Shown here in pieces: positions 18,924 to 54,647 of a stretch of 64,000 nucleotides of DNA. How positions within the stretch are numbered: the stretch's first letter is position 1; every line of letters starts with the position of its first letter. Origin of the DNA: Deltaproteobacteria bacterium. Its GTDB lineage: Bacteria > Desulfobacterota > DSM-4660 > Desulfatiglandales > Desulfatiglandaceae. The stretch is taken from assembly GCA_019307815.1 (NCBI GenBank), contig JAFDIV010000019.1, forward strand, positions 1-64,000, written 5' to 3'. The notes below the pieces were generated by a model, which had not been told where the DNA came from, searched no databases, and saw only the letters and a list, made by a program, of their open reading frames with translations. The position numbers were made by a program, and so were the translations under genes.

Positions 18924-18958
18924 AACATGTGGCAGGTGGGAACCAAGGGGGTGTTAAT

Positions 18959-21838: not shown

Positions 21839-21841
21839 AGG

Positions 21842-22504: not shown

Positions 22505-22559
22505 GTTTACCTCCTTGAGGCATCACTTTTAACAAAATTTTCTATACATCCCGTATGCT

Positions 22560-39336: not shown

Positions 39337-40671
39337 ATGGACAAGAAAGCGCTTTTGGAGAGGGTTAAAGAATTGGGGCTTCATACGATTCGGGTGGAAT
39401 TCTCTGATATGTACGGAGTTAGTAGAGGCAAGATGGTACCTGCTTCGCGGTTGGAAGAGGTCTTGGAGGAGGGAATCAATTGTGCCAAGCCCACTTTTTC
39501 GTTGGACCTCAGTTACAACATACCACCCGGTACTGGAACGGCTGATGAGGTAAACTACGAAGATATGACCATAATTCCCGATCCAGCCACGTTCATGGTG
39601 ATTCCTTACCAAGAAGGTCTCTGCAGGCTCATTGGTGATCTTTACGCGGACGGAAAACCTTTCCCCTACTCGCCGAGAGGGCTTTTAAAGAAAGTGGTGG
39701 AAAAATACCGAGAGAAGGGATTAATCCCTATCTCTGCCAGTGAGTTGGAATTCTTCGTTTTTGAGTCAGATGGAGATAACTTCCAGTACTATTGCGACAA
39801 GCCGAGCAATGTTTACACCGTTGGCCCCCGGAGTGATCCCAAAGGGCTACTCACCAGCCTGCAAAACACTCTCGTGCAAATGGGCATTGATGTTCTCTAC
39901 ATAAACCACGAATTCTTCCAAAGCCAGTACGAGATAAACTGGCGGCACCAAGAAGCCCTTACCATGGCAGACCAAACCTTCACATTCAAAATGGTATGCA
40001 AGGAACTGGCATTTTTGAATGACCTCTTTGTGACCTTCATGGCTCGACCCAAAAATGAAATGGGTGGTAGTGGTTATCATATCCACTTTTCCATTCAGGA
40101 TGCTGAAACCGGCAAAAACCTTTTTGATGATCCCAATGGAAAAGAAGGTATGTCAGACCTAATGCGCTATTTTATTGGTGGGCAGATGGCACATGCAAAA
40201 GCGATGACTCCTTTCTTGGCCCCAACAATCAATTCTTATAAGCGATATGTCCTTAATTCCTTTGCTCCCTACTATTTGGCCTGGGGCTTGGACAACAGAA
40301 CCACCTACATTAGGGTCCCCAGAGAAAGGGGGGCTGCCACAAGAGTGGAAAACCGGGCTGCTTGTGCCTCTGCCAACCCGTATCTTGCCCTCGCCGTTGC
40401 CCTCATCGCGGGTCTGGATGGCATAGAAAAGCAACTTGATCCGGGTGACTATTATGTGGGTGATATTTACACCGAGGAGCCAGGGAAATTCGATACAGTA
40501 CCATTTTATCTCCAAGAGGCAATAGAAGAGCTAAAGAAGGACAAGGTCCTTTGTGAAGCTATCGGAGAGGAGATCATAAACAATTACACTGCCGTAAAGA
40601 TGTCAGAGGTGGAAAGATTTAGGACATACGTTACCGAATGGGAATTCAATGAGTACTTTTATCACCTATAA
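39337..40671 (+). CDS. Glutamine synthetase-like gamma-glutamylalkylamide synthetase
   Basis: A 444-residue member of the glutamine synthetase superfamily, nearest in context to GmaS/GlnT-type ligases that join glutamate to an alkylamine with ATP. The beta-grasp domain (1-100) has FSDMYGVSRGKMVP; the catalytic domain carries SELEFFVF (metal/glutamate ligands), GGSGYHIHFSI (ATP/metal), and RTTYIRVP and RVENRAACASANPYLA (phosphate and glutamate sites). The adenylylation tyrosine motif of classical GlnA is not seen. The three genes below match N-methylglutamate synthase, so the product is likely a gamma-glutamylalkylamide. Which amine is used cannot be read. True ammonium-assimilating GlnA is the alternative. 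Confidence 0.8.
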   Translation: MDKKALLERVKELGLHTIRVEFSDMYGVSRGKMVPASRLEEVLEEGINCAKPTFSLDLSYNIPPGTGTADEVNYEDMTIIPDPATFMVIPYQEGLCRLIGDLYADGKPFPYSPRGLLKKVVEKYREKGLIPISASELEFFVFESDGDNFQYYCDKPSNVYTVGPRSDPKGLLTSLQNTLVQMGIDVLYINHEFFQSQYEINWRHQEALTMADQTFTFKMVCKELAFLNDLFVTFMARPKNEMGGSGYHIHFSIQDAETGKNLFDDPNGKEGMSDLMRYFIGGQMAHAKAMTPFLAPTINSYKRYVLNSFAPYYLAWGLDNRTTYIRVPRERGAATRVENRAACASANPYLALAVALIAGLDGIEKQLDPGDYYVGDIYTEEPGKFDTVPFYLQEAIEELKKDKVLCEAIGEEIINNYTAVKMSEVERFRTYVTEWEFNEYFYHL

Positions 40672-40686: not shown

Positions 40687-41586
40687 ATGTGCGGTATTGC
40701 TGGCATCATTGCCAAGGATTCCGACACACTAGGCAATGACCTTATCAGTATGCTGAAAGAGCTCATTCACAGGGGCAAAGACTCAACAGGTATTGCTGTC
40801 TATGAGCAAAGAGATCACGCGTGTTTGAGGGTCTCTTTGAGGGATTCGAGATACCAGAATGAACTGGAGCAGATAATAGAAAAATACGCCAAGATTGTTA
40901 ATAAGAAGGTCTATCAAGGGAAAGGAGTATTTACCTTCCTTGAATCCGCAATAGATATCGCCGCCGATGATATAGCCAAACTCAACTGGGAGATTGATAC
41001 CCATCCTCACTTGTGTGTGCATTCCATTGGTAGAAAGATCAAGGTGTATAAAGATGAGGGATCAGCAGAGGAATTAAGAGAAAAACACAGTATAGATATG
41101 AAGCGTGCAACTCACGGGATCGGGCATGTAAGGCTTGCTACGGAAAGTATCGAGGACATCAACTTCGCCCACCCTTTTGTATCCTACATCTTTCCCGAAC
41201 TCGCCATTGTACACAACGGTCAATTCACCAACTATTTCAATCTCCGAAGAAAATTGGAAAACCTTGGCGTGCGCTTCAAGACAAACAACGACTCGGAGAT
41301 GGCCGCCCATTTTCTGGCCTACCACATGAAAGAAAAGGGGATGAGCCTTGAAGAGGCTCTCTGGCTTGGGCTGGATACGTTTGACGGAGTATTCACATTG
41401 CTGGTCAGCACACCTGAGCACGTCGGGGCAGTTAGAGACCGCCTTGGTATCAAACCTTTGCTTTACTACGAGCAAGACGGTTCTCTGGCACTTTTTGGCT
41501 CCGAGCAGATATGTCTCACTTCCATAGTTTATGACGTTTACGCAACCGAGATGGACCCAGGAGATGTTAAGGTATGGCACGTCTAG
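40687..41586 (+). CDS. N-alkylglutamate synthase subunit A-like (class II amidotransferase)
   Basis: A 299-residue Ntn-hydrolase glutaminase-type domain as in MgsA/GlxB. The nucleophile is Cys2 in MCGIAGIIA. The substrate pocket residues follow in IGHVRLATES and VHNGQFTNYF, with NDSEMAAHFL. In the pathway it would hydrolyse the gamma-glutamylalkylamide and channel the amine to the synthase site. It lies 15 bases after the synthetase gene and overlaps the next gene by 13 bases. Confidence 0.85.
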   Translation: MCGIAGIIAKDSDTLGNDLISMLKELIHRGKDSTGIAVYEQRDHACLRVSLRDSRYQNELEQIIEKYAKIVNKKVYQGKGVFTFLESAIDIAADDIAKLNWEIDTHPHLCVHSIGRKIKVYKDEGSAEELREKHSIDMKRATHGIGHVRLATESIEDINFAHPFVSYIFPELAIVHNGQFTNYFNLRRKLENLGVRFKTNNDSEMAAHFLAYHMKEKGMSLEEALWLGLDTFDGVFTLLVSTPEHVGAVRDRLGIKPLLYYEQDGSLALFGSEQICLTSIVYDVYATEMDPGDVKVWHV

Positions 41587-42272
41587 ATCTTACAGGAATG
41601 AGCTCAAGAGAGGTAAATCGAAAGCTCAGGGAACTCATTAGGACGGAGAATCACATTGAGGTCTTCAATCCTCACTCAATTCATAACTTCGCCACTGCTT
41701 TGGTGGGTGAGGGGGTCATCACTGTGCATGGAAGCACAGGATTTTACACTGGAGGATTTCTGGACAGTCCAACCTTAATAATAAAAGGCAATACTGGGTG
41801 GTATACGGGAGACAACATGATGTCCGGTGAAATCATTGTAGAGATGAATACCGGGAGTAATGCCGGGCCATCAATGGTTGGGGGGACGCTTTTAATAAAA
41901 GGAAATAGTGGGAGTCGAGCTGGTTGGGGAATGAAAGGTGGTAACCTCATTGTTTGCGGAAATGTGGGGAGATGGACAGGCAAGATGACCCTGGGCGGCA
42001 GGATAATTGTGCTGGGCCAGGTCGGTGAGGGTATCGGCGAGTCGATGTACAATGGAGTCATTCACACCTTGGATCCTTCTATAGAGGACAAGTTGGGGGG
42101 TAACGTAAGGGTGGTTCCTATTGCAGATGAAGAGAAAAGAGAAGTGGAAATTTTGTTTAAAAGATATGGCATTGAACAATCTGTTGAGGAGTTCAAGAGT
42201 GTCGTGCCAAAAATCTATGGTAGGCATGAATATGTCTTGTTTAAACCCACGCATAAAATGAGGCAACAGTAA
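41574..42272 (+). CDS. N-alkylglutamate synthase subunit B-like (GXGXG domain)
   Basis: A 232-residue beta-helix protein with the repeated G-x-x-G-x-x-x-G units of the glutamate synthase C-terminal GXGXG domain (TGWYTGDNMMSGEIIVEMN, GNSGSRAGWGMKGGNL). This matches MgsB/GlxC, the structural subunit that tunnels the amine between the two active sites. Its stop shares a base with the start of the next gene (TAATG), so expression is coupled. Confidence 0.87.
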   Translation: MARLDLTGMSSREVNRKLRELIRTENHIEVFNPHSIHNFATALVGEGVITVHGSTGFYTGGFLDSPTLIIKGNTGWYTGDNMMSGEIIVEMNTGSNAGPSMVGGTLLIKGNSGSRAGWGMKGGNLIVCGNVGRWTGKMTLGGRIIVLGQVGEGIGESMYNGVIHTLDPSIEDKLGGNVRVVPIADEEKREVEILFKRYGIEQSVEEFKSVVPKIYGRHEYVLFKPTHKMRQQ

Positions 42273-43564
42273 TGGGATCAGAGGAGAAAAAAGTCAAAGT
42301 CAAGGATGTGCAAAGGGGTATTTGGACTCCCGAAGTCATCTCTGAAATAAAATACAAGGCCGAATTCGGCAAACATCGAATAAGGGGATGTGGCGCGGTA
42401 AGGAAATTCCCGAACTTTGATGACCTTTTGGTGCTTCCTGCGCAGCTAACCAGAATGTCCATTGACACCTATAGAGAAGATTGCAAGACACAAACAGTTT
42501 TGGGGGCGAGATATGCCAAAAGGCCTTTGGTCATTGAGACACCTATCATGATTTCGGGCATGTCCTACGGAGCGCTCAGCAAAGAAGCAAAGATTGCCCT
42601 TGCCAAGGCCACTGACATTGTAGGGACCTCTATCAATAACGGTGAAGGAGGGCTACTACCAGAAGAGAGGGCAAATTCTTACAAGCAGGTAGTTCAGATA
42701 TTACCCAGTAGAATCGGATTCTCTTTGAGGAACATAGAGGCGGCAGATGCATTAGAAATCATTGTTGGAATAGGGGCCAAACCAGGATTGGCAGGCCACC
42801 TCATGGGCTCGAAGATAACCAAGGAAATAGCACAGTTCAGGCAACTTCCCGAAGGTATAGACCTTCATAGTCACCCCAGACATGGAGATATATTTGGCGC
42901 CGATGATTTGTGTCTCAAGGTTGAAGAGTTGAGAGACGTGACTGACGGGGAGATACCAATATTTATAAAAATAGCAGCGGGAAGAGTCTGGGAAGATGTG
43001 AAAATCGCTGCAAAGGCGGGAGTTGATGGTATTGTCATAGACGGTGCCGAAGGGGGCACCGGAGCAGCTCCTGTTGTGGCTTCTAACAATCTTGGAATCC
43101 CAACCCTCCCAGCACTTGTTCAGGCTGTGAGAAGTCTCGAAGACATGGGAGTAAAAGATGAGATAAGCCTTGTTGTCTCGGGCGGCATAAAGGACGGGGC
43201 CGATGTGGCCAAGGCAATAGCACTGGGGGCAGATGCAGTCGCTATTGGGACCGGGGCAATGGTGGCAATGGGTTGTGTGGTTTGCTTACGGTGCCATGAG
43301 GGAAAATGTCCTTTTGGAATTGGTACTCAAGATCCGGAACTAAGAAAGAGACTCGACATAGATGAAGCCGCACAGAAGGTTGCAAACTATATCAAAGGAA
43401 TGACGTACGAAGCAGTAATTATCGCCAAGGCTGCAGGCAAGACAAAGCTGCACAGCCTGGAAAGAGAAGACTTAAGATCTCTGACATTAGAGGCATGCGC
43501 GATGACAGGTATTCCTCTTGTGGGATCAAACTATGTATTTGGGGAAAGATTCGGTTTCTGTTAG
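42272..43564 (+). CDS. N-alkylglutamate synthase subunit C-like (FMN, glutamate synthase core)
   Basis: A 430-residue protein equal to the central FMN-binding domain of glutamate synthase, as in MgsC/GlxD. The FMN/2-oxoglutarate barrel shows ISGMSYGALSKEAK, DGAEGGTGAAPVV and SGGIKDGADVAKAIALGADA. Cys335, Cys338, Cys341 and Cys346 (CVVCLRCHEGKC) supply ligands for a 3Fe-4S-type cluster. It would reductively join the amine to 2-oxoglutarate, giving N-alkylglutamate. Full length for the family. Using free ammonia to make glutamate is the alternative role. Confidence 0.87.
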   Translation: MGSEEKKVKVKDVQRGIWTPEVISEIKYKAEFGKHRIRGCGAVRKFPNFDDLLVLPAQLTRMSIDTYREDCKTQTVLGARYAKRPLVIETPIMISGMSYGALSKEAKIALAKATDIVGTSINNGEGGLLPEERANSYKQVVQILPSRIGFSLRNIEAADALEIIVGIGAKPGLAGHLMGSKITKEIAQFRQLPEGIDLHSHPRHGDIFGADDLCLKVEELRDVTDGEIPIFIKIAAGRVWEDVKIAAKAGVDGIVIDGAEGGTGAAPVVASNNLGIPTLPALVQAVRSLEDMGVKDEISLVVSGGIKDGADVAKAIALGADAVAIGTGAMVAMGCVVCLRCHEGKCPFGIGTQDPELRKRLDIDEAAQKVANYIKGMTYEAVIIAKAAGKTKLHSLEREDLRSLTLEACAMTGIPLVGSNYVFGERFGFC

Positions 43565-43614: not shown

Positions 43615-43932
43615 ATGAGGATTGAAGAGCATCCAATTTTAGGAAAATTTGAAAAGGGGAGGAAAATAAAGTTTACCTTTGACGGAAAAACATTGGAAGG
43701 GTTTGAGGGAGAACCTATCGCCGTCGCCCTTAGAAGCAACGGGGTCATGATTCACCGTTATACAGCGAAGCGCAATGAACCTAGAGGAGTGTTTTGTGCC
43801 ATTGGAAGGTGCACGGACTGTATCATGGTGGTAGATGGGACCCCAAATGTAAGGACCTGTATAGAACCGTTGAAAGAGGGGATGGTGGTTGAAACACAGC
43901 GGGGCAAAGGGTCGATAATAAAGCCGGAGTAA
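43615..43932 (+). CDS. [2Fe-2S] subunit of split amine dehydrogenase (HcnA/SoxA N-terminal-like)
   Basis: A 105-residue plant-type ferredoxin domain with ligands in FCAIGRCTDC and the distant VRTC (C-x4-C-x2-C-x11-C), as in HcnA, the N-terminal part of sarcosine oxidase alpha and the small subunit of dye-linked proline dehydrogenases. It begins with IEEHPILGKFEKGRK, the usual start of these subunits. It would relay electrons between the flavin subunits and other clusters. The FAD subunit gene follows after three bases. Confidence 0.85.
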   Translation: MRIEEHPILGKFEKGRKIKFTFDGKTLEGFEGEPIAVALRSNGVMIHRYTAKRNEPRGVFCAIGRCTDCIMVVDGTPNVRTCIEPLKEGMVVETQRGKGSIIKPE

Positions 43933-43935: not shown

Positions 43936-45027
43936 GTGAAGCGGTATGAAATGATAAGCATAGGGGCAGGTCCGGCGGGGTTGGCCGGTGCCATAGAGGC
44001 TGCCAAAAGGGGAGTCCAGGTTGTAGTTTTCGATGAGAATGACCGCCCCGGAGGCCAGCTCTTCAAACAAATCCACAAGTTTTTTGGATCGCATGAACAT
44101 TTCGCGAAGATCCGAGGGTTCAATATTGGGAATGAGCTCCTTCAAGAGGCGAACCGACTGGGCGTTGAGGTCTTTCTCAATGCTGTAGTCATAGGTATCT
44201 ATGATGGTCGGGTGTTGAATGTCATGATGAACAACAAAAACATAGAACATGTTAAGGCAGAGAAAATTCTTGTCGCCACCGGCGCCTCGGAGAACATGGT
44301 ACCTTTTCCCGGTTGGACCCTGCCTGGCGTGATAGGCGCGGGAGCAGCTCAAACTATGGCCAATATCCACGGGATAAAGCCTGGGAATAAAATATTGATG
44401 GTGGGATCAGGTAACGTCGGCCTGGTTGTTAGCTATCAGCTTTTGCAGGCCGGATGCGAGGTCGTGGCCATCATTGATGCTGCACCGGAGATAGGCGGCT
44501 ACGGGGTCCATGCCGCCAAGGTGGCCAGATATGGTGTTCCTTTCTATATGTCCCATACAATAAAGGCGGCCCATGGCAAAGACAGTGTGGAAGGTGCCAC
44601 AGTGGTAGAGGTTGATAAGGAATGGAAACCAATACCGGGGACGGAAAAAGAATTTGATGTGGATACCATTTGTCTTGCGGTCGGCCTTAACCCCATGACG
44701 CAATTGCTGAGAATGAGCAAATGCAAGATGGTCTATGAGCCAGTGCTTGGCGGATACGTACCAGCTCACGATATTAACCAAGAGACCTCAATACCGGGCA
44801 TTTATGCAGCTGGCGATGTGTCAGGCATTGAAGAAGCCAGCACGGCCATTATTGAGGGGAGAATAGCAGGGCTGTCCATAGCCCATAGTCTGGGCTATCT
44901 GGACACTAAGGATTTTTTGAAGGAGAGGGACGAACAACTTCGAAGCCTCAAGGGCCTCAGATCGGGAGGGCATGGAGAAGCTAGGAGATCTGCAAAAGAG
45001 CACTTAATCAGAGCGTTGGAAGGTTGA
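43936..45027 (+). CDS. FAD/NAD(P)-binding subunit of split amine dehydrogenase (HcnB-like)
   Basis: A 363-residue two-dinucleotide-binding flavoprotein: FAD site ISIGAGPAGLAGAIEAA at the start, then FDENDRPGGQLFKQIHKFFGS, a second nucleotide fold ILMVGSGNVGLVVSYQL, and the C-terminal GIYAAGDVSGIEEAS. It matches HcnB and the central part of SoxA, but both extra SoxA modules are missing: there is no THF-binding aminomethyltransferase domain and no BFD [2Fe-2S] tail. The BFD domain is encoded separately at 51232. GTG start. Confidence 0.85.
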   Translation: MKRYEMISIGAGPAGLAGAIEAAKRGVQVVVFDENDRPGGQLFKQIHKFFGSHEHFAKIRGFNIGNELLQEANRLGVEVFLNAVVIGIYDGRVLNVMMNNKNIEHVKAEKILVATGASENMVPFPGWTLPGVIGAGAAQTMANIHGIKPGNKILMVGSGNVGLVVSYQLLQAGCEVVAIIDAAPEIGGYGVHAAKVARYGVPFYMSHTIKAAHGKDSVEGATVVEVDKEWKPIPGTEKEFDVDTICLAVGLNPMTQLLRMSKCKMVYEPVLGGYVPAHDINQETSIPGIYAAGDVSGIEEASTAIIEGRIAGLSIAHSLGYLDTKDFLKERDEQLRSLKGLRSGGHGEARRSAKEHLIRALEG

Positions 45028-45030: not shown

Positions 45031-45549
45031 ATGCCAACAGGACTTTCTCGCACAGGATATATCTCAAAAGAGGAGCTAGAAAAGGCGCCAGGAATACCTT
45101 CGGCTGAAAGACGCAGAAAAGGGCCGGTGGCAGTGATAGAGTGCATCCAGGATATCCCGTGTAATCCTTGTGAGACGAGCTGCCCCACGGGAGCCATAAC
45201 CGTGGGAGAGGACATCACCAACCTGCCGGTCCTGGACGAAGAAAAGTGCGTTGGTTGCCGGAGTTGCGTGCCAATTTGCCCAGGGCAGGCCATCTTCGTA
45301 GTTGACGAAAGTTTGGACAACGGAAAGGCTACTGTAACAATACCTTATGAATTTCTGCCGCCTCCTGAGAAGGGAGATGTGGTTATTGCGCTGGATCGGT
45401 CTGGAAAGGAGTTGGGAGAGGCGGTTGTGGATTCGGTCAGGATAAGCGAGAAAATGGATCATACCACCTTGGTCACCATTTTAGTTCCAAGGGAATGGTC
45501 GATGGAGGCTAGAGGATTTAAGAGAAAATTACAAGAGAAGAGGAGGTAG
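45031..45549 (+). CDS. 2x[4Fe-4S] electron-transfer subunit
   Basis: A 172-residue ferredoxin-like protein. Two clusters are set by CIQDIPCNPCETSCPTGAI (an unusual first group, C-x5-C-x2-C-x3-CP) and CVGCRSCVPICPGQAI (C-x2-C-x2-C-x3-CP). A C-terminal non-cluster domain with VVIALDRSGKELGEAVV follows. Equivalent proteins accompany anaerobic proline or hydroxyproline dehydrogenase operons, so this is the probable electron exit of the split amine dehydrogenase towards PduS or ferredoxin. Three bases separate it from the FAD subunit gene, and it immediately precedes the shell genes. Confidence 0.8.
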   Translation: MPTGLSRTGYISKEELEKAPGIPSAERRRKGPVAVIECIQDIPCNPCETSCPTGAITVGEDITNLPVLDEEKCVGCRSCVPICPGQAIFVVDESLDNGKATVTIPYEFLPPPEKGDVVIALDRSGKELGEAVVDSVRISEKMDHTTLVTILVPREWSMEARGFKRKLQEKRR

Positions 45550-45555: not shown

Positions 45556-45837
45556 ATGTCTGAACAAGCTCTAGGTATGGTTGAGACAAGAGGCCTGGTG
45601 GGAGCGATAGAGGCTGCCGACGCCATGGTGAAGGCCGCCAAGGTGAGGTTTGTAGGAAGAGAATTTGTGGGCGGTGGTCTTGTAACGGTTTTTGTCCGTG
45701 GTGATGTGGGAGCTGTTAAAGCAGCAACAGATGCGGGAGGGGCTGCAGCCGACCGGGTCGGTGAGCTGGTTTCGGTCCATGTAATCCCGAGGCCGCACAG
45801 TGACATAGAATCCACAATCCCAAAACCAGAAGAATAA
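45556..45837 (+). CDS. BMC-H shell protein (PduA/EutM type)
   Basis: A 93-residue single-BMC-domain protein that forms hexameric tiles of the shell. It has [41 protein letters not shown] and [11 protein letters not shown], nearly PduA-like throughout. The pore loop reads FVGGG in place of the PduA KIGSG, so the pore-lining serine is replaced by glycine. It is the first shell gene and probably the major facet protein. A second BMC-H is at 50869. Confidence 0.97.
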
Positions 45838-46022: not shown

Positions 46023-46325
46023 ATGGCGGTAAATATCCAACTTATAACCCACCCGAGTCACGGTGTCATTGAGATACTCATGAGCAGGGTGGGACCGGTC
46101 GGTCGGAAGCTGATCGAACAAATTGAGTTTAGTGCTGTTGGACTGGTTCAAGGGAGACTTACGGACATGATTTATGCAGCGGACATTGCCGAGAAAGCCG
46201 CAGATGTCCGGGTTTTTGATTTGAAAGGAACATGTCCACAGCACCTGACTATGATAGGGATTTTTGGTGATATAGCTGCTGTAAAGGCTGCACTAGAGGC
46301 CATAAAGGCAGATGAAAGTCTCTAA
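46023..46325 (+). CDS. Circularly permuted BMC-H shell protein (EutS/PduU type)
   Basis: A 100-residue BMC protein with the permuted order of EutS/PduU. An N-terminal strand (VNIQLITHPSHGVIEILMS) precedes the core SAVGLVQGRLTDMIYAADIAEKAADV and the LTMIGIFGDIAAVKAAL end. EutS/PduU hexamers carry a small beta-barrel over the pore, formed by that N-terminal part. Its exact role in shell function is not settled. It is 185 bases downstream of the first BMC-H. Confidence 0.88.
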   Translation: MAVNIQLITHPSHGVIEILMSRVGPVGRKLIEQIEFSAVGLVQGRLTDMIYAADIAEKAADVRVFDLKGTCPQHLTMIGIFGDIAAVKAALEAIKADESL

Positions 46326-46366: not shown

Positions 46367-46639
46367 ATGATACTGGGTAAAGTCGTAGGGGATGTCTGGT
46401 CCACAAAAAAAAAGGAAGAAGTCAACGCCCTGAGATTCCTATTTGTTCAGCCCTTCGGTAAGAATCTCACTCTCAAAGAAGAATTGATAGTTGCGGCTGA
46501 TGAGATAGGAGCTGGAATCGGCGAAACAGTAATAGTAACTCAGGGCGCGCCTGCGATGCAGGCCTTCAAGAGGGACAATCTTCTTCCTATCGATGCAGTG
46601 GTAATCGGCATTGTGGACAGCATGGAGATGCCGGAATAG
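46367..46639 (+). CDS. BMC-P vertex pentamer (EutN/CcmL/PduN)
   Basis: A 90-residue EutN/CcmL-family protein; pentamers cap the twelve vertices and close the shell. It starts MILGKVVGDVWSTKK, and has the FVQPFGKNLT, VAADEIGAGIGETVIVTQG and PIDAVVIGIVDS segments of the family. Only one BMC-P gene is present, so vertices should be uniform. The presence of a pentamer supports a closed compartment. Confidence 0.97.
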   Translation: MILGKVVGDVWSTKKKEEVNALRFLFVQPFGKNLTLKEELIVAADEIGAGIGETVIVTQGAPAMQAFKRDNLLPIDAVVIGIVDSMEMPE

Positions 46640-46652: not shown

Positions 46653-47987
46653 ATGAGCAATGCAATTGTGGACAAGATAAGAGAAGCCGGAGTGGTGGGG
46701 GCTGGAGGAGCGGGATTTCCCACTCATATCAAGGTGAGCGCCCGGGCTGAAATCGTGCTGGGCAATGGGGCCTCGTGCGAACCCCTCTTGGTCAGTGATA
46801 TTTACCTTATGGAAGAGATGTCGGAACAAATCCTCAGAGGGCTCCAGCTTGTTGTCCAATGCACCGGAGCGAAAAAAGGAATCTTGTGCCTTAAAGGAAA
46901 GCACAAGAAGGCATGGGAAAATCTACAAAGGGCCTTAAAACAACACTTTCCAGAGATTGAGCTGTTTGAGTTGGGGAATTTCTATCCCGCAGGTGATGAA
47001 CATATCTTGGTTTATGAGGTGACGGGGAAAGTAGTCCCCGAAGGAGGGATACCACATGACGTAGGGGTTATTGTAAACAATGTAGAGACCCTGTTGAACA
47101 TAGAGAGAGCCGTTGATGAAGGCGCTCCTGTTACTCAAAGGTATATTACAGTTACAGGAGAGATAAAACATTCAATGGTAACCAAAATCCCAATTGGGAC
47201 CCCCATAGGGCAGGTCATTGATTACGCTGGTGGTGCAACGGTTGAGGATTTTTTGGTGGTGGTTGGAGGTCCCATGATGGGGATGGTTACGGATGATCTC
47301 TCAGTACCGGCTACAAAAACTACTACGGCCCTCATTGTGCTCCCCAAGAATCATAATGTTGTTCGAAGCAAGATTATGGATCCGAGGCGGCTTTTAGAGA
47401 TTACCAAAACAGTATGCTGCCAATGCTCCAGGTGCACTGATCTGTGTCCGAGGCATCTCTTGGGCCATGATATTGAACCTCACAAAATTATGAGATCTCT
47501 TGCATGGGCTTCGGACCTGTCAATGGAGGTATTTCAGGCGACTCTAATTTGCTCAGAATGTGGCATTTGCGAAAAATACGCCTGCCCCATGATGATATCA
47601 CCAAGAGAGGTAAATGCCCGTATTAAGCAAGAGCTGCTGAGAAAAGGCGTAAAAAAGAAACAGGATGGAAAGGCGTATGAGCCTTCAAGTTTTAGGAATC
47701 TTCGCAAGGTGCCAGCTGATAGACTGATAGAAAAGCTAAACATAAAAAAATATGATTATTTCCCCCCATTCAGATATTTTAGCAGTGACGTGAATAGAGT
47801 GAAGATCCCCTTGGATCAGCATATAGGTAAACCAGCAGTTGCTTTGGTTGCCGAAGGTGACAAGATCACCCGAGGAGGATTGATAGGTGACATAGGTGAG
47901 AATGCGGTAGGAGCGAAGGTACATTCCTCTATAAATGGCGTCGTTGTTTCTGCCCGTGATGCCATAACGATTCAAGCGGGAACATGA
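46653..47987 (+). CDS. PduS-like flavin/Fe-S oxidoreductase (RnfC/NuoF-like)
   Basis: A 444-residue protein of the PduS family. The N-terminal KIREAGVVGAGGAGFPTHIK and the NFYPAGDEHILVYEVTGK region form the NADH/FMN-binding NuoF-like fold. Two [4Fe-4S] clusters follow in CCQCSRCTDLCPRHLLG and CSECGICEKYACP, then a C-terminal barrel-sandwich (GKPAVALVAEGDKITRGGLIG). In Pdu systems PduS is assigned as a cobalamin reductase and interacts with PduT; no B12-dependent BMC enzyme exists here, so an NADH/ferredoxin electron conduit is the better reading. Full length. Confidence 0.93.
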   Translation: MSNAIVDKIREAGVVGAGGAGFPTHIKVSARAEIVLGNGASCEPLLVSDIYLMEEMSEQILRGLQLVVQCTGAKKGILCLKGKHKKAWENLQRALKQHFPEIELFELGNFYPAGDEHILVYEVTGKVVPEGGIPHDVGVIVNNVETLLNIERAVDEGAPVTQRYITVTGEIKHSMVTKIPIGTPIGQVIDYAGGATVEDFLVVVGGPMMGMVTDDLSVPATKTTTALIVLPKNHNVVRSKIMDPRRLLEITKTVCCQCSRCTDLCPRHLLGHDIEPHKIMRSLAWASDLSMEVFQATLICSECGICEKYACPMMISPREVNARIKQELLRKGVKKKQDGKAYEPSSFRNLRKVPADRLIEKLNIKKYDYFPPFRYFSSDVNRVKIPLDQHIGKPAVALVAEGDKITRGGLIGDIGENAVGAKVHSSINGVVVSARDAITIQAGT

Positions 47988-48002
47988 GAAAGGTAGTAAT
48001 AA

Positions 48003-48554
48003 ATGGAATATCGGGCTATTGGACTTCTTGAGTTAAACAGTGTGGCAAGAGGCATTGAGTGCGGTGATGCCATGGTCAAGGCATCGGAGGTGGAACTCAT
48101 AATGGCTCGATCTACTTGTCCCGGTAAGTATCTTGTAATGATTGCTGGGGATGTTGGTTCAGTACAGAATTCTGTAAAGGTTGGCAGAGAGGTAGCAGGT
48201 GAGTTTCTTGTTGATCGTTTTGTAATTCCTAATGTTCACCCTTCGGTATTTCCTGCTCTCGCTTGTTCGACATCTGTTCCACAGATCAATGCGCTTGGAG
48301 TAATAGAGACCTACTCTGTTGCTTCCTCTATTATAGCAGCTGATGGAGCCGTAAAGGCAGCAGATATTTCCCTTATTGAGGTTAGATGTGCTACTGGCTT
48401 GGCGGGCAAGTCGTATGTGTCCTTTACAGGTGATGTTGGTTCCGTACGTTCAGCGGTTGATGCCGCCCTGGCCCTTATTCAAGAAGAGGGAATAATTCAA
48501 TGCTATGCAGTGATTCCGTCGTTGGCGAGGGAACTACATTCATCCCTAGCCTAG
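48003..48554 (+). CDS. BMC-T shell protein with [4Fe-4S] cysteine (PduT type)
   Basis: A 183-residue tandem-BMC protein forming pseudohexameric trimers. Domain 1 covers residues 1-90 and domain 2 residues 97-183. Cys39 in RSTCPGKYLVMI matches the PduT cysteine that binds one [4Fe-4S] cluster in the trimer's central pore. That lets electrons cross the shell. The adjacent PduS-like protein is its known partner. It overlaps the EutJ-like gene by 55 bases. Confidence 0.95.
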   Translation: MEYRAIGLLELNSVARGIECGDAMVKASEVELIMARSTCPGKYLVMIAGDVGSVQNSVKVGREVAGEFLVDRFVIPNVHPSVFPALACSTSVPQINALGVIETYSVASSIIAADGAVKAADISLIEVRCATGLAGKSYVSFTGDVGSVRSAVDAALALIQEEGIIQCYAVIPSLARELHSSLA

Positions 48555-49363
48555 TAGAGAATGTCGATAGAATAAGATATCTGGTGAACAGGCCAGAGCG
48601 CTGGGATATGGCAGGTGTCAGTGAGCTGTTCACAGGAGTTGATTTAGGGACGTCCATGGTGAAGGTGCTGGTAGTGGATGAAGCAGGATGCCCACGGGCT
48701 GCCGTGATGAAAGAGGCAACGGTGGTCAAGAGTGGACTTATTTTGGACTATGTGGGGGCTTTAAGCATTGTGAAAGAGATAATTGCCGACATAAGAGCTC
48801 ATCTCCCGGTTGGGATTGAGAAGGCCGCCACTTCATACCCTCCCAATACTGAATCAGCCAATGTAGATACTACGAAGTATATATTGGAAGGAGCAGACCT
48901 AAGAGTTGTCTGCGTCCTGGATGAACCTACCGCTGCCAATGAGGTGTTGAAGCTTACAAACGGTGCTATTGTTGACATAGGTGGCGGCACTACTGGTATC
49001 TCGGTGTTTCGAGATGGAGAAGTAGTATATTCGAACGATGAGCCGACAGGAGGCGTACATTTGTCGCTCGTGTTGGCAGGCCACTTGGGAATAGGTTATG
49101 AGCAAGCTGAGCAGCTGAAACGGGATAGGACAAAAGCCAAGGACATTTTTCCAATTGTCAGGCCCGTCATTGAAAAGATTTCAAGCATCATTGGCTCATT
49201 TTTGCGAGGGTTTAATTGGATAGAGGAAATTTATTTGGTAGGCGGGACCTGTGAGCTGGAAGGGATTGCAGAAATAGTTTCGGAGGAACTGGGGATTTTG
49301 GCAAAAACCCCCCCCTTCCCTCAGGCAATCACACCATATGGAATTGCTCTTTCCTGCTTATGA
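48500..49363 (+). CDS. EutJ-like ASKHA chaperone
   Basis: A 287-residue actin/Hsp70-like ATPase of the EutJ family, BMC-associated chaperone-like proteins of unproven role. It has the phosphate 1 loop TGVDLGTSMVKVLVVDEAG, connect segment VLDEPTAANEV, phosphate 2 loop NGAIVDIGGGTTGISVF and the adenosine motif YLVGGTCELEGIAE. The ATG at 48500 lies inside the BMC-T gene; an ATG 36 codons later (ahead of AGVSELFTG) is an alternative start. Confidence 0.9.
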   Translation: MLCSDSVVGEGTTFIPSLVENVDRIRYLVNRPERWDMAGVSELFTGVDLGTSMVKVLVVDEAGCPRAAVMKEATVVKSGLILDYVGALSIVKEIIADIRAHLPVGIEKAATSYPPNTESANVDTTKYILEGADLRVVCVLDEPTAANEVLKLTNGAIVDIGGGTTGISVFRDGEVVYSNDEPTGGVHLSLVLAGHLGIGYEQAEQLKRDRTKAKDIFPIVRPVIEKISSIIGSFLRGFNWIEEIYLVGGTCELEGIAEIVSEELGILAKTPPFPQAITPYGIALSCL

Positions 49364-49395: not shown

Positions 49396-50190
49396 ATGAA
49401 AGAAATAGACGAAGAAAAGATCCGCCGACTAGTTTTAGAGAGCCTGAAGCAAATAGGGATAAACCCTGCAGTTACACATCAAAATGTTGGCTCTGGCGTG
49501 GATGGCCCAAGGGCTTTGATTGTTTTGAATTCTGGGTTGAGACGTGTGGATGAGGCCCTTGAACACGTTCGCCTCATAGAGAAGCAATGCAGTAAGGCTG
49601 CCTTTTTTACTGTGAGCTCTGCGAGAGAGACTTTGTGCAAAGAAGACATAAGGGAAAAGGCGGGAGGGCGGTGTATACTGGATACGGTTTCAGAAGACGG
49701 CGTGGAAAAGGTTTTATCCATGTCAGATATTCTGGTTCTGCCCACCTTCTGTTTTACTGTAGCTTCCAAGGTAGCCAACCTGATTGTTGACGACTTCGAA
49801 TCCCGCCTTCTGTTTTCTGCGCTGGCCCAGGGGAAAAAGGTTTTGGCAACCAAGGATAGTTTTTCTTTTATCGGGCTTGTTAAGAATGAAAGAATAGGCG
49901 CTGAGATAATGCATATCTTAGAGAAATTGAAGGATATGGGGATAAATTTTTGTGAGACGCAAGATCTTGAGAAAGTGTTTATGGAATTAGTCAGCAGCGA
50001 TAATAAGGAAAGCCAGCGTAACGACTCAAATGATAGAGAAGCGAGTGTGAAACTGATTACAGCCAAGGTAGTGACCGAGGCTTTTGAGAAAGGGAACCAG
50101 AGGATTAAACTTGCTAAGGGCGGCAAGATTACACCTTTGGCAAGAGATCTGGCAAAGGAATATTCAATAGAAATCGTTACATTGGGGTAA
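49396..50190 (+). CDS. BMC-associated flavoprotein-like protein with targeting modules
   Basis: A 264-residue protein with three parts. Residues 1-22 (IDEEKIRRLVLESLKQIG) form an amphipathic helix of the encapsulation-peptide kind. The middle has the character of the Flavoprotein (PF02441-like) proteins found in BMC loci (ILVLPTFCFTVASKVANLI, SRLLFSALAQGKKVLA). The last 45 residues, LITAKVVTEAFEKGNQRIK and GKITPLARDLAKEYSIEIV, are a EutQ-N-terminal-like module that recurs in the proteins at 51232 and 57218. Enzymatic function is unknown; cargo assembly or flavin handling is inferred. Confidence 0.7.
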   Translation: MKEIDEEKIRRLVLESLKQIGINPAVTHQNVGSGVDGPRALIVLNSGLRRVDEALEHVRLIEKQCSKAAFFTVSSARETLCKEDIREKAGGRCILDTVSEDGVEKVLSMSDILVLPTFCFTVASKVANLIVDDFESRLLFSALAQGKKVLATKDSFSFIGLVKNERIGAEIMHILEKLKDMGINFCETQDLEKVFMELVSSDNKESQRNDSNDREASVKLITAKVVTEAFEKGNQRIKLAKGGKITPLARDLAKEYSIEIVTLG

Positions 50191-50234: not shown

Positions 50235-50852
50235 ATGGCGGAATTACGAGCTTATTGTCATCTGGATAGGTTGCAACCTCAGTTTGCATCCCTGTTTGCA
50301 TGCAGATGCAGGGGATATCTTTCAGTAGAGGGCATGGCGTCATTGTTTGTCGAAGTAGTACCGGGGGTCGAAATAAATCGAATTACCGATATCGCCCTTA
50401 AACTAACTAACTCTAGGCCCGGTGAGATGATCGTCGAGCGACGCTATGGGATGTTAGAGATTCATTCCTTTGAACAAGAGGAAGTTTTGCAAGCAGGGAG
50501 AATGATCTTAGAGGAACTCGGACTCAAGGAAGAGGAAAGGCTTGCTCCAAAAATTCTGGCCACAAGTGTAATCAACAAGGTCGATCCATACCAAGCAGTT
50601 ATCATAAATAGGAATAGCAGAGGGATGCTAATCCTAGGTGGAGATGATGTGTATCTTCTGGAAGTAACACCAGCAGCATATTCCTCCATAGCTGCTAATG
50701 AGGCGGAGAAGCACTGTAACATTAGGCTCGTAGACATAAGATTTTTTGGAGCGGCGGGAAGGATTTACTTGGCAGGGTCTCATTCGGAGGTGCAGGCTGC
50801 GGCAAAAGTGGTGGTTGAGACCCTTAAAAGTTTGAAAGGTAGAGAGCAATAG
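50235..50852 (+). CDS. BMC-T shell protein, double-stacking type (CsoS1D/CcmP-like)
   Basis: A 205-residue tandem-BMC protein of the subgroup whose trimers stack face to face, with large gated pores. It opens ELRAYCHLDRLQPQFASLF and has VPGVEINRITDIALK and the central VERRYGMLEIH; Glu68-Arg69 correspond to the gate pair of CsoS1D. The second domain has NRNSRGMLILGGDDVYLLEV. Such pores can pass large metabolites or cofactors. A paralogue is at 53067. Confidence 0.93.
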   Translation: MAELRAYCHLDRLQPQFASLFACRCRGYLSVEGMASLFVEVVPGVEINRITDIALKLTNSRPGEMIVERRYGMLEIHSFEQEEVLQAGRMILEELGLKEEERLAPKILATSVINKVDPYQAVIINRNSRGMLILGGDDVYLLEVTPAAYSSIAANEAEKHCNIRLVDIRFFGAAGRIYLAGSHSEVQAAAKVVVETLKSLKGREQ

Positions 50853-50868: not shown

Positions 50869-51207
50869 ATGGAAGAGGCTTTAGGTATGATTGAGTCGCG
50901 AGGTTTGGTGGGTGCCATAGAGGCAGCAGATGCTATGGTCAAATCAGCCAATGTAAAATTCCTTGGCAGGAAAAAGGTCAAGGGCGGTCTGATGATCGTA
51001 ATGGTCAGCGGCGAAGTAGGGGCTGTCAAAGCGGCAGTGGATGCAGGACGGCAGGCATGTAAAGAGGTCGGGCATCTAGTCTCAGCCCACGTAATACCTA
51101 GACCTGCTGAAGGAATTGAGACCCTCTTGCCCAAGCCAGGGACTCCTGCTCCAATGAAGAGAAAAAGAAGGCAGGCTAAAAGAGAAAAGCCCAAAAAGAA
51201 AAAATGA
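50869..51207 (+). CDS. BMC-H shell protein with basic C-terminal tail
   Basis: A 112-residue single-BMC-domain hexamer subunit, a paralogue of the protein at 45556. The pore loop reads KVKGG, placing a lysine next to the pore where PduA has glycine, so its pore should be more positive and suited to anions. A tail of about 18 residues (PMKRKRRQAKREKPKKKK) is almost entirely basic, unlike normal BMC-H ends, and may bind nucleic acid, cargo or the membrane. Confidence 0.95.
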   Translation: MEEALGMIESRGLVGAIEAADAMVKSANVKFLGRKKVKGGLMIVMVSGEVGAVKAAVDAGRQACKEVGHLVSAHVIPRPAEGIETLLPKPGTPAPMKRKRRQAKREKPKKKK

Positions 51208-51231: not shown

Positions 51232-51825
51232 ATGGCAGGCCGATTCATTTTCCGCAAAGATATTGAAAAAGCAATAAAGGACGGGAAAAAAGAAATACTA
51301 ATTCCTCAGGATGCAAGAATATCTTCTGAGGCCCTTGATCTCATAAAAGAGAAAAACATTAGCGTAAAATACTCCCAAGAGCAAAGCCCGCAAACAGAAG
51401 ATGAGAGAGAATTAGGTTCAGCTCCGGAAACAGTGAAAGTAGAGGAGACAGGTATTTCTGAGAGCGAGGTAGAGGAGATAGTCAATAGGGTTATCCAAAG
51501 GATCAGAGAACTGAGACATAAGCAGGGCTCGGAGAAGGTTGTTAGGGCTGAAGAGGCTCAAGAAGATGATGATATGATCATATGCAGGTGTGAAGAAATT
51601 ACCAAAGGTGAAATCAGGGAAGCAATACGCAGTGGGATTAAAACTCTGAATGGGATCAAACGAGTTACAAGAGCGGGCATGGGACTTTGCCAGGGCCAAA
51701 CATGTGAAAGGCTTGTCTCTCAAATACTCTGTGAAGAGCTCGGAGTAAAGAGAGAGGAGGTTGAGCCAAGCACGGCTCGAGCTCCTGTCAGACCTGTCCC
51801 TATTTCAGTTTTTGCTACCGGATAA
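51232..51825 (+). CDS. BFD-like [2Fe-2S] protein with EutQ-like N-terminal module
   Basis: A 197-residue fusion. Residues 1-48 (RFIFRKDIEKAIKDGKKEI, IPQDARISSEALDLIKEKN) are the EutQ-like module shared with the proteins at 49396 and 57218. A charged linker follows. From about residue 115 a BFD-type [2Fe-2S] domain has CRCEEITKGEIREAIRSG and GMGLCQGQTCERLV (C-x-C and C-x4-C). In HcnB and sarcosine oxidase alpha this domain is the C-terminus of the FAD subunit; here it is detached and seems redirected to the shell. It lies 18 bases before the second flavin subunit gene. Confidence 0.85.
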   Translation: MAGRFIFRKDIEKAIKDGKKEILIPQDARISSEALDLIKEKNISVKYSQEQSPQTEDERELGSAPETVKVEETGISESEVEEIVNRVIQRIRELRHKQGSEKVVRAEEAQEDDDMIICRCEEITKGEIREAIRSGIKTLNGIKRVTRAGMGLCQGQTCERLVSQILCEELGVKREEVEPSTARAPVRPVPISVFATG

Positions 51826-51843: not shown

Positions 51844-53049
51844 ATGTCAGTAACAGCAGACACTGTGATAATAGGCGGCGGCGTTATGGGGTGTTCCATA
51901 GCGTATAATCTTGCCAAAGAGGGCCTTAAACCGATAGTGGTAGAGAAGTCCGACATAGGCGGAGAGGCCTCAGGAAGTAATGGTGGAGGGGTTAGACAAT
52001 CGGCAAGAAATCTGAAGGAAATGCCCTTGGCAATGGAAAGTGTAAAGCTTTATGAGCAATTACATGATGAGCTTGGGATGGATGTTGAATATGTTCAAAA
52101 GGGAAATCTTCGTCTGTGTACCACTGAAGAAGAACTTGAAAACATGCGAAAATCAGTGGAGAACCAAAAAGCAGCCGGTCTGGATTTAGAGATGCTAGAC
52201 CGAAAGCAGATCCTCGAAATAAACCCATATGTGGGGGAGAAGGTCATTGGCGCCAGTTACTGCCCTACGGATGGGCATGCAAATCCTTTTTTGGTGACAT
52301 ATGCATATTACAAAAGAGCAAAGGAACTAGGTGTGCAGTTTTTTACACATGAAGAGGTAACAGATATTAGGCTCAGGAAGGGAAAAGTAATAGGTGTTTT
52401 GACCAACAAGAGGGAAATACATACAGATGTGGTGGTCAACGCTGCCGGTGTAGCGGGGCGAGAAGTGGCGAATATGGTGGACCTTGACCTGCCGTTACGA
52501 CCGGTATTTTCAGAAGCACTTATCACGGAACCGTGTTCACCACTTTTTCCGCAGATGATTGGACACGCAAAGGGGCTGTTCTATGGAAGACAGACTGTGC
52601 ACGGCTCTTTTTTTTGGGGGGGCTTTGTTGGAACGGAAAACTTTATCTATAGAAGTGGAAAGCCCCTATTTCACTTTATTGGACCTGCTATTTGTAAGAT
52701 GGTTGAGGAGTATTTTCCCATACTCAAAGGCCTGAACGTGATACGCACATGGTCAGGCATCATAGCCATGATGTCGGATGGGCTTCCTGTGCTAGGTTTT
52801 ACCGAAGAAGTGGCCGGGTTTGTGTTTGCAACGGGCTTTAGCGGTCATGGGTTTGGACTTGCGCCAATAATCGGGAAGCTCATAAGCGAGTTGATATTGG
52901 ACTGTAAGACATCGTTGCCAATCAATGAGTTTTGCTACGGAAGATTCTCCCATGAGGAAACTGAAGAATGTGCTTGCAAAGCAGAAGGTGCTTGCACCAT
53001 TAGTTCTGCCATATGCCCTTACAAAAGAGAGTGGCTGAAAAGCGTTTGA
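51844..53049 (+). CDS. FAD-dependent amine/amino-acid dehydrogenase subunit (HcnC/SoxB-like)
   Basis: A 401-residue DAO-family flavoprotein, the catalytic partner of HcnB-like proteins. The FAD fold is TVIIGGGVMGCSIAYNLA, then GGEASGSNGGGVRQSARN, VVVNAAGVAGREVANM, and the C-terminal GFVFATGFSGHGFGLAPIIG with the substrate loop. In sarcosine oxidase, HcnC and proline dehydrogenase this subunit oxidises the C-N bond of a secondary amine. N-alkylglutamate is the substrate suggested by context. The end of the protein adds CACKAEGACTISSAIC, four cysteines not usual in SoxB, that may bind a metal cluster. Confidence 0.9.
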   Translation: MSVTADTVIIGGGVMGCSIAYNLAKEGLKPIVVEKSDIGGEASGSNGGGVRQSARNLKEMPLAMESVKLYEQLHDELGMDVEYVQKGNLRLCTTEEELENMRKSVENQKAAGLDLEMLDRKQILEINPYVGEKVIGASYCPTDGHANPFLVTYAYYKRAKELGVQFFTHEEVTDIRLRKGKVIGVLTNKREIHTDVVVNAAGVAGREVANMVDLDLPLRPVFSEALITEPCSPLFPQMIGHAKGLFYGRQTVHGSFFWGGFVGTENFIYRSGKPLFHFIGPAICKMVEEYFPILKGLNVIRTWSGIIAMMSDGLPVLGFTEEVAGFVFATGFSGHGFGLAPIIGKLISELILDCKTSLPINEFCYGRFSHEETEECACKAEGACTISSAICPYKREWLKSV

Positions 53050-53066
53050 CCCAGAGGTCGGATAAG

Positions 53067-53684
53067 ATGATTCAGTTCAGAGCCTTTGCCACAATTGACA
53101 GGTTACAAAAGCAATTCACTGGCTTCATTGGAAGCACCGCTTTGGGATACTATCCGGTTCCAGGCCAGGCTGCGCTTTTTATGGAGATAGCCCCAGGGAT
53201 ACAGATCAACTCTCTTACCGACATAGTGCTGAAGAGAGCAAATGTTTGGCTTGGTGCGATGGTAGTGGAGAGGACCTATGGCATGCTAGAGGTACATGCC
53301 GACTCGCCTGCTGACATCAAAGAAGCAGGCGAAGTAGTCCTGGAGAATTTAGGGCTGGATCTGTCTCAACGGCTCAGGCCCAAGATACTCTCATCAGTAG
53401 TTATAGAGAGGACCGATCCATATATGTCCCAAATCATAAATAGATTCAGGGCCGCAAGCATGATGTTGAGCGAAGAAACCCTTTACATTCTTGAAGTAGT
53501 TCCAGCTGGCTATGCAGGGCTGGCGGCAAATGAGGCAGAGAAGGCTGCAGATATAAATCTCATTCATGTGAGTGTTTTCGGAGCCAGTGGAAGAGTTTAC
53601 TTGAGCGGATCCGTTTCGGACGTAGACGCAGCCAAGAAGGCAGCAGAGAATTCCTTAAGAAGTCTTCATGGAATGGACCATTAG
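53067..53684 (+). CDS. BMC-T shell protein, double-stacking type (second copy)
   Basis: A 205-residue tandem-BMC protein, paralogue of the one at 50235. It starts MIQFRAFATIDRLQKQFTGF and has PVPGQAALFMEIAPGIQINS and VVERTYGMLEVH with the same Glu68-Arg69 gate pair. I set the start at ATG 53067, matching the paralogue; the open frame extends upstream into the previous gene. Having two versions suggests two sorts of gated pores or a mixed stack. Confidence 0.93.
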   Translation: MIQFRAFATIDRLQKQFTGFIGSTALGYYPVPGQAALFMEIAPGIQINSLTDIVLKRANVWLGAMVVERTYGMLEVHADSPADIKEAGEVVLENLGLDLSQRLRPKILSSVVIERTDPYMSQIINRFRAASMMLSEETLYILEVVPAGYAGLAANEAEKAADINLIHVSVFGASGRVYLSGSVSDVDAAKKAAENSLRSLHGMDH

Positions 53685-54647
53685 GTGACAGGGCAGAAAG
53701 AGATGAAGAGTCCTAAAAAGGATTTATTCGATCGTGTAGTGGACGCCTATCCCTCTTTATCATCGAAAAAAAGGAGGATAGCTGACCTTATATTGAAAGA
53801 TTTCAAGAAGCTCTTCTTGATGACCGCCAAAGAAATTGCCGATGAGTGCGGGGTAAGCGAGCCAACGGTAATAAGATTCACTCAAGATCTTGGGTTTACG
53901 GGATACTCGGATTTCGTTCAGCACATGAAGAGTGTCTTACGGACAGAGCTTACAAGTGTGGAGCGGCTCACCAAGACAAAACATAAATTAAAAGACGAAA
54001 GCACTCTCAAAAGGTATTGCGAAAATGCAATGTATAACCTAGAAAACATTGTTACATCAATTTCAGACTTTGAGTTGAAACGGGTCGCAAGGAGGATCTA
54101 TAAGGCGGACCAGGTATTTGTTGTTGGATATCGAGCCTCAGCAACTCTTGCATACTACTTTGGGTATCTCCTCAAAAAAATCAAAGAGAATGTATTCGTT
54201 GATACGACCATATCGTGGGAAATCATTGATTTAATAACTAAATGCAACCGTCCTTCTCTGATGTGTGTATTTGCATTCCCGAGGTATCCAAGGAGAACGA
54301 TCGAGATAGTAAGATTTGCAAAGCAATACGGCATCGACATTCTGGGAATAAGTGATAACCCAAGGTCACCCATTATCACGCTATCGGATGAGTATGTCAT
54401 AATTGATGTGGAAGGTGTGTCTTTCATTGATCCCTTCTCTCACATCATAACCTTTATTAGCGCATTAGTGCATGAAATAACCTTTATTGATAGTGAGAGA
54501 GCCAAACAGTTGCTGGCCAAATTTGATGAAGGCGTTAAAGCTGCAAGAGAGTTTTACACTGAAGATGGGATTAACGAGGAGTTGGAATACAAGCTTGACA
54601 GTGAGCATCTCACCTCATTGTGGCCACAGAAAAAGGTGAAGCCATAA
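53685..54647 (+). CDS. MurR/RpiR family transcriptional regulator
   Basis: A 320-residue regulator with an N-terminal helix-turn-helix (LMTAKEIADECGVSEPTVIRFTQDLGF, given in two blocks by its family) and a C-terminal SIS sugar-isomerase domain (VFVVGYRASATLAYYFGYLL, CVFAFPRYPRRTIEIVRFA). SIS domains usually sense phosphorylated sugars, but RpiR proteins also control amine and amino-acid operons. A GTG start directly follows the BMC-T stop. Being inside the operon it probably governs the operon promoter; its ligand is unknown. Confidence 0.92.
   Translation: MTGQKEMKSPKKDLFDRVVDAYPSLSSKKRRIADLILKDFKKLFLMTAKEIADECGVSEPTVIRFTQDLGFTGYSDFVQHMKSVLRTELTSVERLTKTKHKLKDESTLKRYCENAMYNLENIVTSISDFELKRVARRIYKADQVFVVGYRASATLAYYFGYLLKKIKENVFVDTTISWEIIDLITKCNRPSLMCVFAFPRYPRRTIEIVRFAKQYGIDILGISDNPRSPIITLSDEYVIIDVEGVSFIDPFSHIITFISALVHEITFIDSERAKQLLAKFDEGVKAAREFYTEDGINEELEYKLDSEHLTSLWPQKKVKP

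Follow-up and report, generated by a model that had tools for sequence, protein, structure and literature searches.

We identified an operon for a bacterial microcompartment (BMC) in which adjacent PduS and PduT genes accompany a flavin/Fe-S dehydrogenase of the opine type, a glutamine synthetase (GS)-like ligase and a glutamate-synthase-like module, within a DNA stretch of 64,000 nucleotides (the window). On balance, with a probability that we place a little above even, the locus specifies a metabolosome whose substrates are opine-like N-alkyl amino acids derived from an amine and glutamate, with PduS/PduT as its electron exit. Outward electron transfer is the best-supported role of the pair, and the electrons would come from the flavin dehydrogenase, from NADH or from both; the locus type recurs in six genomes, and no B12 enzyme, glycyl-radical enzyme (GRE), alcohol dehydrogenase (ADH) or PTAC was found in these loci. 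The operon comprises the following genes.

39337-40671, + strand: glutamine-synthetase-like amine ligase, similar to gamma-glutamyl-alkylamide synthetase (PF00120, 2.8e-103)
40687-41586, + strand: GATase subunit of a glutamate/N-alkylglutamate synthase-like module (PF13522/PF13537; N-terminal Met-Cys)
41574-42272, + strand: GXGXG subunit of the same module (PF01493)
42272-43564, + strand: FMN glutamate-synthase domain (GltS) subunit of the same module (PF01645, 1.2e-105)
43615-43932, + strand: [2Fe-2S] gamma-type subunit of the flavin dehydrogenase (PF13510; CX4CX2CX12C in 6/6 genomes)
43936-45027, + strand: alpha-type FAD subunit of the dehydrogenase (PF07992; similar to the sarcosine-oxidase alpha family)
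45031-45549, + strand: ferredoxin-like subunit (PF12838; eight identical cysteines in 6/6)
45556-45837, + strand: BMC-H shell hexamer (PF00936 over cut-off; EutM-like)
46023-46325, + strand: second BMC-H-type shell protein (PF00936, 40 bits)
46367-46639, + strand: BMC-P shell vertex (PF03319, 5e-26)
46653-47987, + strand: PduS, electron-transfer flavoprotein with FMN and two [4Fe-4S] clusters (domain order, cluster motifs, identity)
48003-48554, + strand: PduT, BMC-T shell trimer with pore Cys39 and type-specific Cys129 (domains, structure matches, alignment)
48500-49363, + strand: EutJ-like actin-fold protein (NF011660 and TIGR02529 over cut-off)
49396-50190, + strand: TIGR02536-like BMC protein with a C-terminal BMC-associated domain (domain HMM)
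50235-50852, + strand: first CcmP-like gated double trimer (BMC-Tdp; NF053796, 1.7e-70)
50869-51207, + strand: third BMC-H (PF00936, 100 bits)
51232-51825, + strand: BFD [2Fe-2S] subunit with an N-terminal BMC-associated domain and an internal encapsulation-peptide-like helix, residues 77-97 (PF04324, PF17806; helix in 6/6)
51844-53049, + strand: beta-type DAO catalytic FAD subunit with a C-terminal four-cysteine motif (PF01266, 9.7e-80; RxW motif)
53013-53684, + strand: second CcmP-like gated double trimer (NF053796, 2.3e-68)
53685-54647, + strand: RpiR-type regulator (PF01418, PF01380)
55092-56555, + strand: acylating aldehyde dehydrogenase (AldDH) with an N-terminal encapsulation peptide (NF011927, 544 bits, over cut-off)
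56667-57083, + strand: RidA-like imine/enamine hydrolase (PF01042, 4.2e-24)

The PduS gene encodes a full-length protein of 444 residues with the Pfam domain order Complex1_51K, SLBB, Fer4_17 and, at the C-terminus, RnfC_N, the same four domains that PMC6325248 lists for PduS. An RnfC identity was ruled out by the C-terminal placement of the sandwich domain (residues 381-436; N-terminal in aligned RnfC chains) and by the higher full-length identity to annotated Salmonella PduS (41%, compared to about 30% across 80-85% of the length for RsxC). Both four-cysteine motifs are present, CX2CX2CX3C (Cys255/258/261/265) and CX2CX2CX4C (Cys300/303/306/311), with the spacing published for Citrobacter PduS (PMC2982820). 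Only 40% of PduS positions are invariant among the six members, yet all eight cluster cysteines are kept in the six orthologs; the glycine-rich loop GAGGAGFPTH is also conserved. On sequence grounds, the window PduS may oxidize NADH with FMN, and it may also bind cobalamin; we know of no sequence motif diagnostic of cobalamin reduction by PduS. Corrin/cobalamin reduction is the known role of the protein (PMC2982820).

PduT (183 residues) consists of tandem BMC domains with the pore cysteine in a CPGK-type loop, and is 47% identical to E. coli PduT. Its best matches in the PDB are PduT-type trimers, and the AlphaFold model (pLDDT 92) superimposes on the PduT-type structures 3nwg, 3n79 and 3pac with TM-scores of 0.87-0.95. 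Cys39 is found in all 50 PduT sequences compared, including 6/6 members of the window type, among which only 42% of positions are invariant, and this ligand cysteine predicts that the trimer may carry a bound [4Fe-4S] cluster. A second cysteine, Cys129, is specific to the window type (6/6 members vs 0/44 other PduT proteins). In the model it begins the loop 129-136, whose equivalent in the first domain is the Cys39 loop. This position hints at tuning, in that Cys129 could bind or adjust the pore cluster. Domains, invariant cysteines and structure matches thus confirm the adjacent PduS and PduT of the sequence-only reading, with two [4Fe-4S] motifs in the one and Cys39 in the other; chance or misannotation of the pair was ruled out by the order of the domains, the spacing of the motifs, the recurrence in six orthologous loci and the PduT structure matches. 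The dN/dS of pduS and pduT was 0.06-0.13 in unsaturated pairs, and the pair is therefore under purifying selection.

The same operon type was found in the window, G007 (L018), L020 from a Syntrophobacteraceae MAG, the Desulfococcaceae genome HSG9 (G041, L019), G180 (L124) and G088 (L125). The recurring order is GS-like ligase, GATase, GXGXG, GltS, Fer2, FAD subunit, ferredoxin, BMC-H, BMC-H and BMC-P, followed by PduS, PduT, EutJ, TIGR02536-like protein, CcmP, BFD, DAO, CcmP, RpiR, AldDH and RidA; the BMC-H after the first CcmP is found in the window only. L018, L020, L124 and L125 end at contig or fetch edges, where some genes were not seen. At the HSG9 locus the GS/glutamate-synthase genes, EutJ and RpiR were not seen, and its AldDH orthologs lie on another contig. 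When genome contigs were scanned with the DAO subunit, generic patterns returned mostly unrelated DAO proteins, with the same type only in L019 and L020. A TRAP transporter downstream of the operon is not conserved and was left out of the system; in its place, G007 and G088 have an amidohydrolase and a branched-chain-type ABC binding protein, and L124 an amino-acid permease. In L018 (14814-16550) and L125 (17394-19106) the genes for the amidohydrolase (PF07969 in L018) and the Liv-type binding protein come after RidA, and an amide is a possible source of the amine there.

The genes flanking the shell proteins point to the chemistry of the organelle. The GS-like ligase scores below all NCBIfam equivalog cut-offs, those for ammonia ligases included, and lacks, in the alignment, the DGSS motif of true GS, and its nearest PDB matches are annotated glutamine synthetases. 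The FMN glutamate-synthase domain subunit is 91% identical in G007. The motifs that define the flavin opine/D-hydroxyproline/L-proline dehydrogenase family (PMC4575208) are present in the dehydrogenase: alpha and beta FAD subunits, RxW and the gamma CX4CX2CX11-12C motif, together with a BFD/SO_alpha_A3 domain. The RxW pattern (an FMN motif) is kept in 5/6 beta orthologs, and the structure nearest to this DAO subunit is 1y56_B, annotated as sarcosine oxidase. Within this family, the flavin-containing opine dehydrogenase that has been characterized does not accept NAD(P)+ (PMC4575208). The encoded dehydrogenase therefore needs another acceptor, and an electron wire may serve it at least as much as NADH. 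The C-terminus of the DAO subunit carries a CxC-x5-C-x6-C tail in the five orthologs that reach it (5/5), a possible extra metal or Fe-S site. In Clostridiaceae BRH_c20a (L083 7838-13842), relatives of the dehydrogenase outside any BMC adjoin a polyferredoxin-like protein and an aldehyde:ferredoxin oxidoreductase, the latter consistent with an aldehyde product; these genes stand behind a branched-chain-type ABC transporter.

AldDH orthologs are present in all six genomes (68-72% identity), and the AldDH N-terminus is an amphipathic helix of the encapsulation-peptide kind. A similar helix lies within the BFD subunit in 6/6 genomes (moment 0.55-0.84, compared to 0.55-0.56 for E. coli PduP/PduL); the BFD model, which is weak (pLDDT 58), comprises a small N-terminal domain, helix 77-97 and the BFD part. 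An HMM of the N-terminal domain finds a NifX-like protein at 57218-57805 (7.6e-16) and the TIGR02536-like protein (3.9e-6), with a marginal score against E. coli EutT (0.014). Together, the AldDH and BFD helices and the shared domain suggest that the dehydrogenase is inside the shell. The shared domain is about 45 residues long (51232-51375 in the BFD subunit, 57263-57391 in the NifX-like and 50056-50181 in the TIGR02536-like protein), has a marginal likeness to the EutT N-terminus and may serve BMCs in cargo loading or assembly. Two AldDH genes occur in tandem in L124 (15742-18670), and HSG9 likewise has two AldDH genes.

Next, we searched for the enzymes that accompany PduS/PduT elsewhere, using E. 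coli Eut and Pdu proteins, the glycyl-radical enzyme YbiW and its activase YbiY as probes. PduC/D/E/O, EutA/B/T, GRE and activase, PduQ/EutG and PduL/EutD gave no match in the 64 kb window and the five sister loci. These loci thus lack the PDU/EUT signature enzymes (PduCDE or EutBC) and the GRM signature of a glycyl-radical enzyme and activase, and of the classical metabolosome core (AldDH, ADH, PTAC) they retain AldDH. The YbiW probe did find targets elsewhere in the phylum sample, matching six other PduT loci. Genome-wide, and in the relatives tested, family searches found no EutB (E. coli, the positive control, matched), no PduC (the PDU-type genome G077, the positive control, matched) and no PduL-type PTAC, which agrees with the claim that diol dehydratase and ethanolamine lyase are missing and argues against a hidden B12 enzyme elsewhere in the genome. 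A shell-targeted ADH encoded elsewhere, which the sequence-only reading had named beforehand as fatal to its proposal, was looked for and none was found: the sole Fe-ADH-family match in the genome is an AroB-like 3-dehydroquinate synthase rather than a true Fe-ADH, and the four zinc-type dehydrogenases show no encapsulation-type extension on inspection. With the genome 98% complete in 75 contigs, the case for genome-wide absence is strong but not absolute.

From these genes we infer the substrate class, the lumenal location and the direction and source of electron flow. We propose that, in the cytosol, the GS-like ligase and the three-subunit glutamate-synthase-like module would turn an amine into an N-alkyl-glutamate, which the flavin/Fe-S dehydrogenase, kept inside the shell via its BFD subunit, would convert to glutamate and an aldehyde. 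The encapsulated acylating AldDH would then produce acyl-CoA and NADH. PduS, anchored on PduT, would take electrons from the Fe-S subunits of the dehydrogenase and/or from NADH, and these would leave to the cytosol through the PduT pore cluster. Citrobacter PduS oxidizes NADH and binds PduT (PMC2982820, PMC6325248), and the published potentials of the PduS flavin (-262 or -150 mV, the sources disagreeing on the preparation) and of PduT (+99 mV; PMC2982820, PMC6325248) allow flow from NADH or the flavin dehydrogenase to PduT. The earlier idea of an electron wire across the shell therefore gains from the context free of B12 enzymes and ADH, the intact electron-transfer residues, the purifying selection and a dehydrogenase whose characterized relative does not use NAD(P)+, but as an idea it was already in print. 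Among the points against the scheme, HSG9 has no GS/glutamate-synthase genes next to its operon, and PduS/PduT are found with ADH in other BMCs.

The sequence-only reading had named a survey of loci with PduS/PduT and no B12 enzyme as a check, and we examined 35 kb around each of 30 Bacillota PduT loci on long contigs. No B12 enzyme was detected in 16/30; EutB or PduC was found in 14/30, GRE in 7/30 and neither in 9/30, the last count being an upper bound since distant or divergent enzymes would be missed. The pair and ADH (PduQ) often occur together, so that replacement of ADH by PduS/PduT as a general rule is unsupported by the survey.

The survey also contained a counterpart in three genomes: L207 (G520, 7531-22804), L203/L204 (G434) and L258 (G684, 1091-16435). 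These BMC loci combine a GS-like ligase with GATase, GXGXG, two GltS proteins, PduS, PduT, PduL, AldDH and acetate kinase. They also carry an octopine dehydrogenase of the NAD type (PF02317), which starts with an encapsulation-peptide-like stretch, and neither a B12 enzyme nor a GRE or ADH was detected in them. The counterpart AldDH is of a different subfamily to that of the window and has a C-terminal peptide; in G520, where this was tested, it is over the cut-off for acetylating acetaldehyde dehydrogenase. In a quick PduS tree, the counterparts form one clade (three rows, 100% SH-aLRT) and the window type another (six rows, 95%), nested among GRE- and B12-associated PduS. The Bacillota BMC is assembled separately from the window type. 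Since two unrelated opine-type dehydrogenases stand beside the same amine-glutamylating module, we argue that N-alkyl amino acids are the shared substrate class. As both Bacillota dehydrogenases are expected to make NADH and no ADH is present, PduS is the only encoded exit there.

That Bacillota arrangement also lends itself to another explanation, in which PduS/PduT merely recycle the NADH made by AldDH in place of ADH, and the flavin dehydrogenase uses a separate acceptor. PduS is the sole encoded NADH-oxidizing candidate in the counterpart, the window locus has no ADH and its genome no Fe-ADH, and Citrobacter PduS is an NADH-dependent flavoprotein (PMC2982820). We nevertheless consider this explanation unlikely, though worth keeping in play, because an acceptor other than NAD is required for the flavin dehydrogenase as well and no further one is evident in the shell operon, and because PduS/PduT stand beside ADH elsewhere, so the pair is more than a stand-in for ADH. 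The corresponding earlier claim, replacement of ADH for NAD+ recycling, is possible but unproven: PTAC is missing too, and the two CcmP-type gated trimers may give NAD(H) and CoA a different way through the shell. Were NAD(H), CoA and acyl-CoA exchanged in this way, PduS/PduT would be left with a minor part such as redox balancing or Fe-S upkeep. Both CcmP-like trimers are conserved in the sister loci, CoA must exchange somehow when PTAC and ADH are both missing, and passage of large cofactors through gated trimers was suggested in PMC8217296; but the strict retention of nine cluster cysteines and of the type-specific Cys129 would go unexplained, and we give this route a slightly smaller chance again.

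Two further possibilities seem very improbable to us, and to a like degree. The pair might be a functionless remnant of an ancestral BMC that depended on B12 or on a glycyl radical; PMC4207490 names a relic as one possibility, and the nested position of the window-type PduS would suit such an origin, but dN/dS of about 0.06-0.13, redox cysteines invariant in six genomes and a conserved operon position are at odds with loss of function. Low-potential electrons might alternatively be sent inward, for instance to reduce cobalamin or another cofactor of an unrecognized lumenal enzyme. Corrin reduction is the known PduS function (PMC2982820), and a B12-binding radical SAM protein is encoded in the window; against it, the six loci have no B12 or glycyl-radical enzyme, and the radical SAM gene (30497-32284, - strand) runs opposite to the BMC operon and is separated from it by about 7 kb, its product being over the cut-off for TIGR03975, RiPP maturation C-methyltransferases.

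Outward transfer, our preferred role for the pair, has a history. An exit of electrons from the shell by way of PduT was suggested in 2010 (PMC2982820), and PduS/PduT without B12 enzymes are not new, having been published in 2014 (PMC4207490) and developed for glycyl-radical BMCs in 2019 (PMC6325248). Whether the pair moves electrons across a shell has been asked since 2010, but B12 or glycyl-radical reactions within one and the same organelle have made the question hard to answer; the window type has neither chemistry and the sole encoded donors are the flavin dehydrogenase and the NAD-linked AldDH, so that the wire can be tested alone. What defines the organelle is the GS/glutamate-synthase module together with a dehydrogenase of the opine type, and neither is part of the sequence-only reading. 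No BMC with opine dehydrogenase, sarcosine oxidase, N-methylglutamate or glutamate synthase turned up in literature searches, although an unnamed catalog entry in PMC8217296 (e.g., an MIC or MUF type) may cover the locus; as far as the literature searched shows, the amine-oxidizing host organelle seems to be an undescribed metabolosome type. The operon points to a new BMC substrate class, amine-derived N-alkyl-glutamates, reached separately in two bacterial groups. More tentatively, as something possible rather than probable, we suggest that "opine metabolosomes" are an undescribed class that arose independently in these two groups and oxidizes N-alkyl-glutamates in the shell, and that the window PduT, with its second pore-loop cysteine, is a dedicated outward conduit fed directly by the encapsulated dehydrogenase and not via NADH.

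Comparison with known systems indicates how these parts have been combined. PduS/PduT match the pair of the Pdu microcompartment in domain make-up, cluster motifs, pore cysteine and the adjacency of the two genes, whereas the window lacks diol dehydratase, PduO, PduQ and PduL, and its PduT has the extra pore-loop cysteine. Glycyl-radical microcompartments (PMC6325248) are also B12-free, and GRE loci are among the PduS clades closest to the window type in the tree, but window-type loci have neither glycyl-radical enzyme nor activase. Other B12-free BMC loci with a reported PduS similarly lack B12 and glycyl-radical enzymes; theirs have aldolases or no signature enzyme, in contrast to the flavin opine-type dehydrogenase and GS/glutamate-synthase-like module of the window type. 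The dehydrogenase resembles OdhABC, D-hydroxyproline dehydrogenase and archaeal L-proline dehydrogenase in its FAD-containing alpha subunit, FAD-containing beta subunit with RxW, [2Fe-2S] gamma subunit and BFD (PMC4575208). Unlike these, it adds a ferredoxin-like subunit, a four-cysteine tail on beta and a BMC operon setting, and its BFD forms a protein of its own, bearing a BMC-associated domain and an encapsulation-like helix. In the N-methylglutamate pathway (GMAS, NMGS, NMGDH), a GS-like ligase and a GATase/GXGXG/GltS module are laid out by a sarcosine-oxidase-like dehydrogenase, and the window has a GS-like ligase and such a module next to its own sarcosine-oxidase-like enzyme. It differs in having no folate-type (GcvT-like) subunit in the locus; here, the aldehyde would instead reach the acylating AldDH inside the shell.
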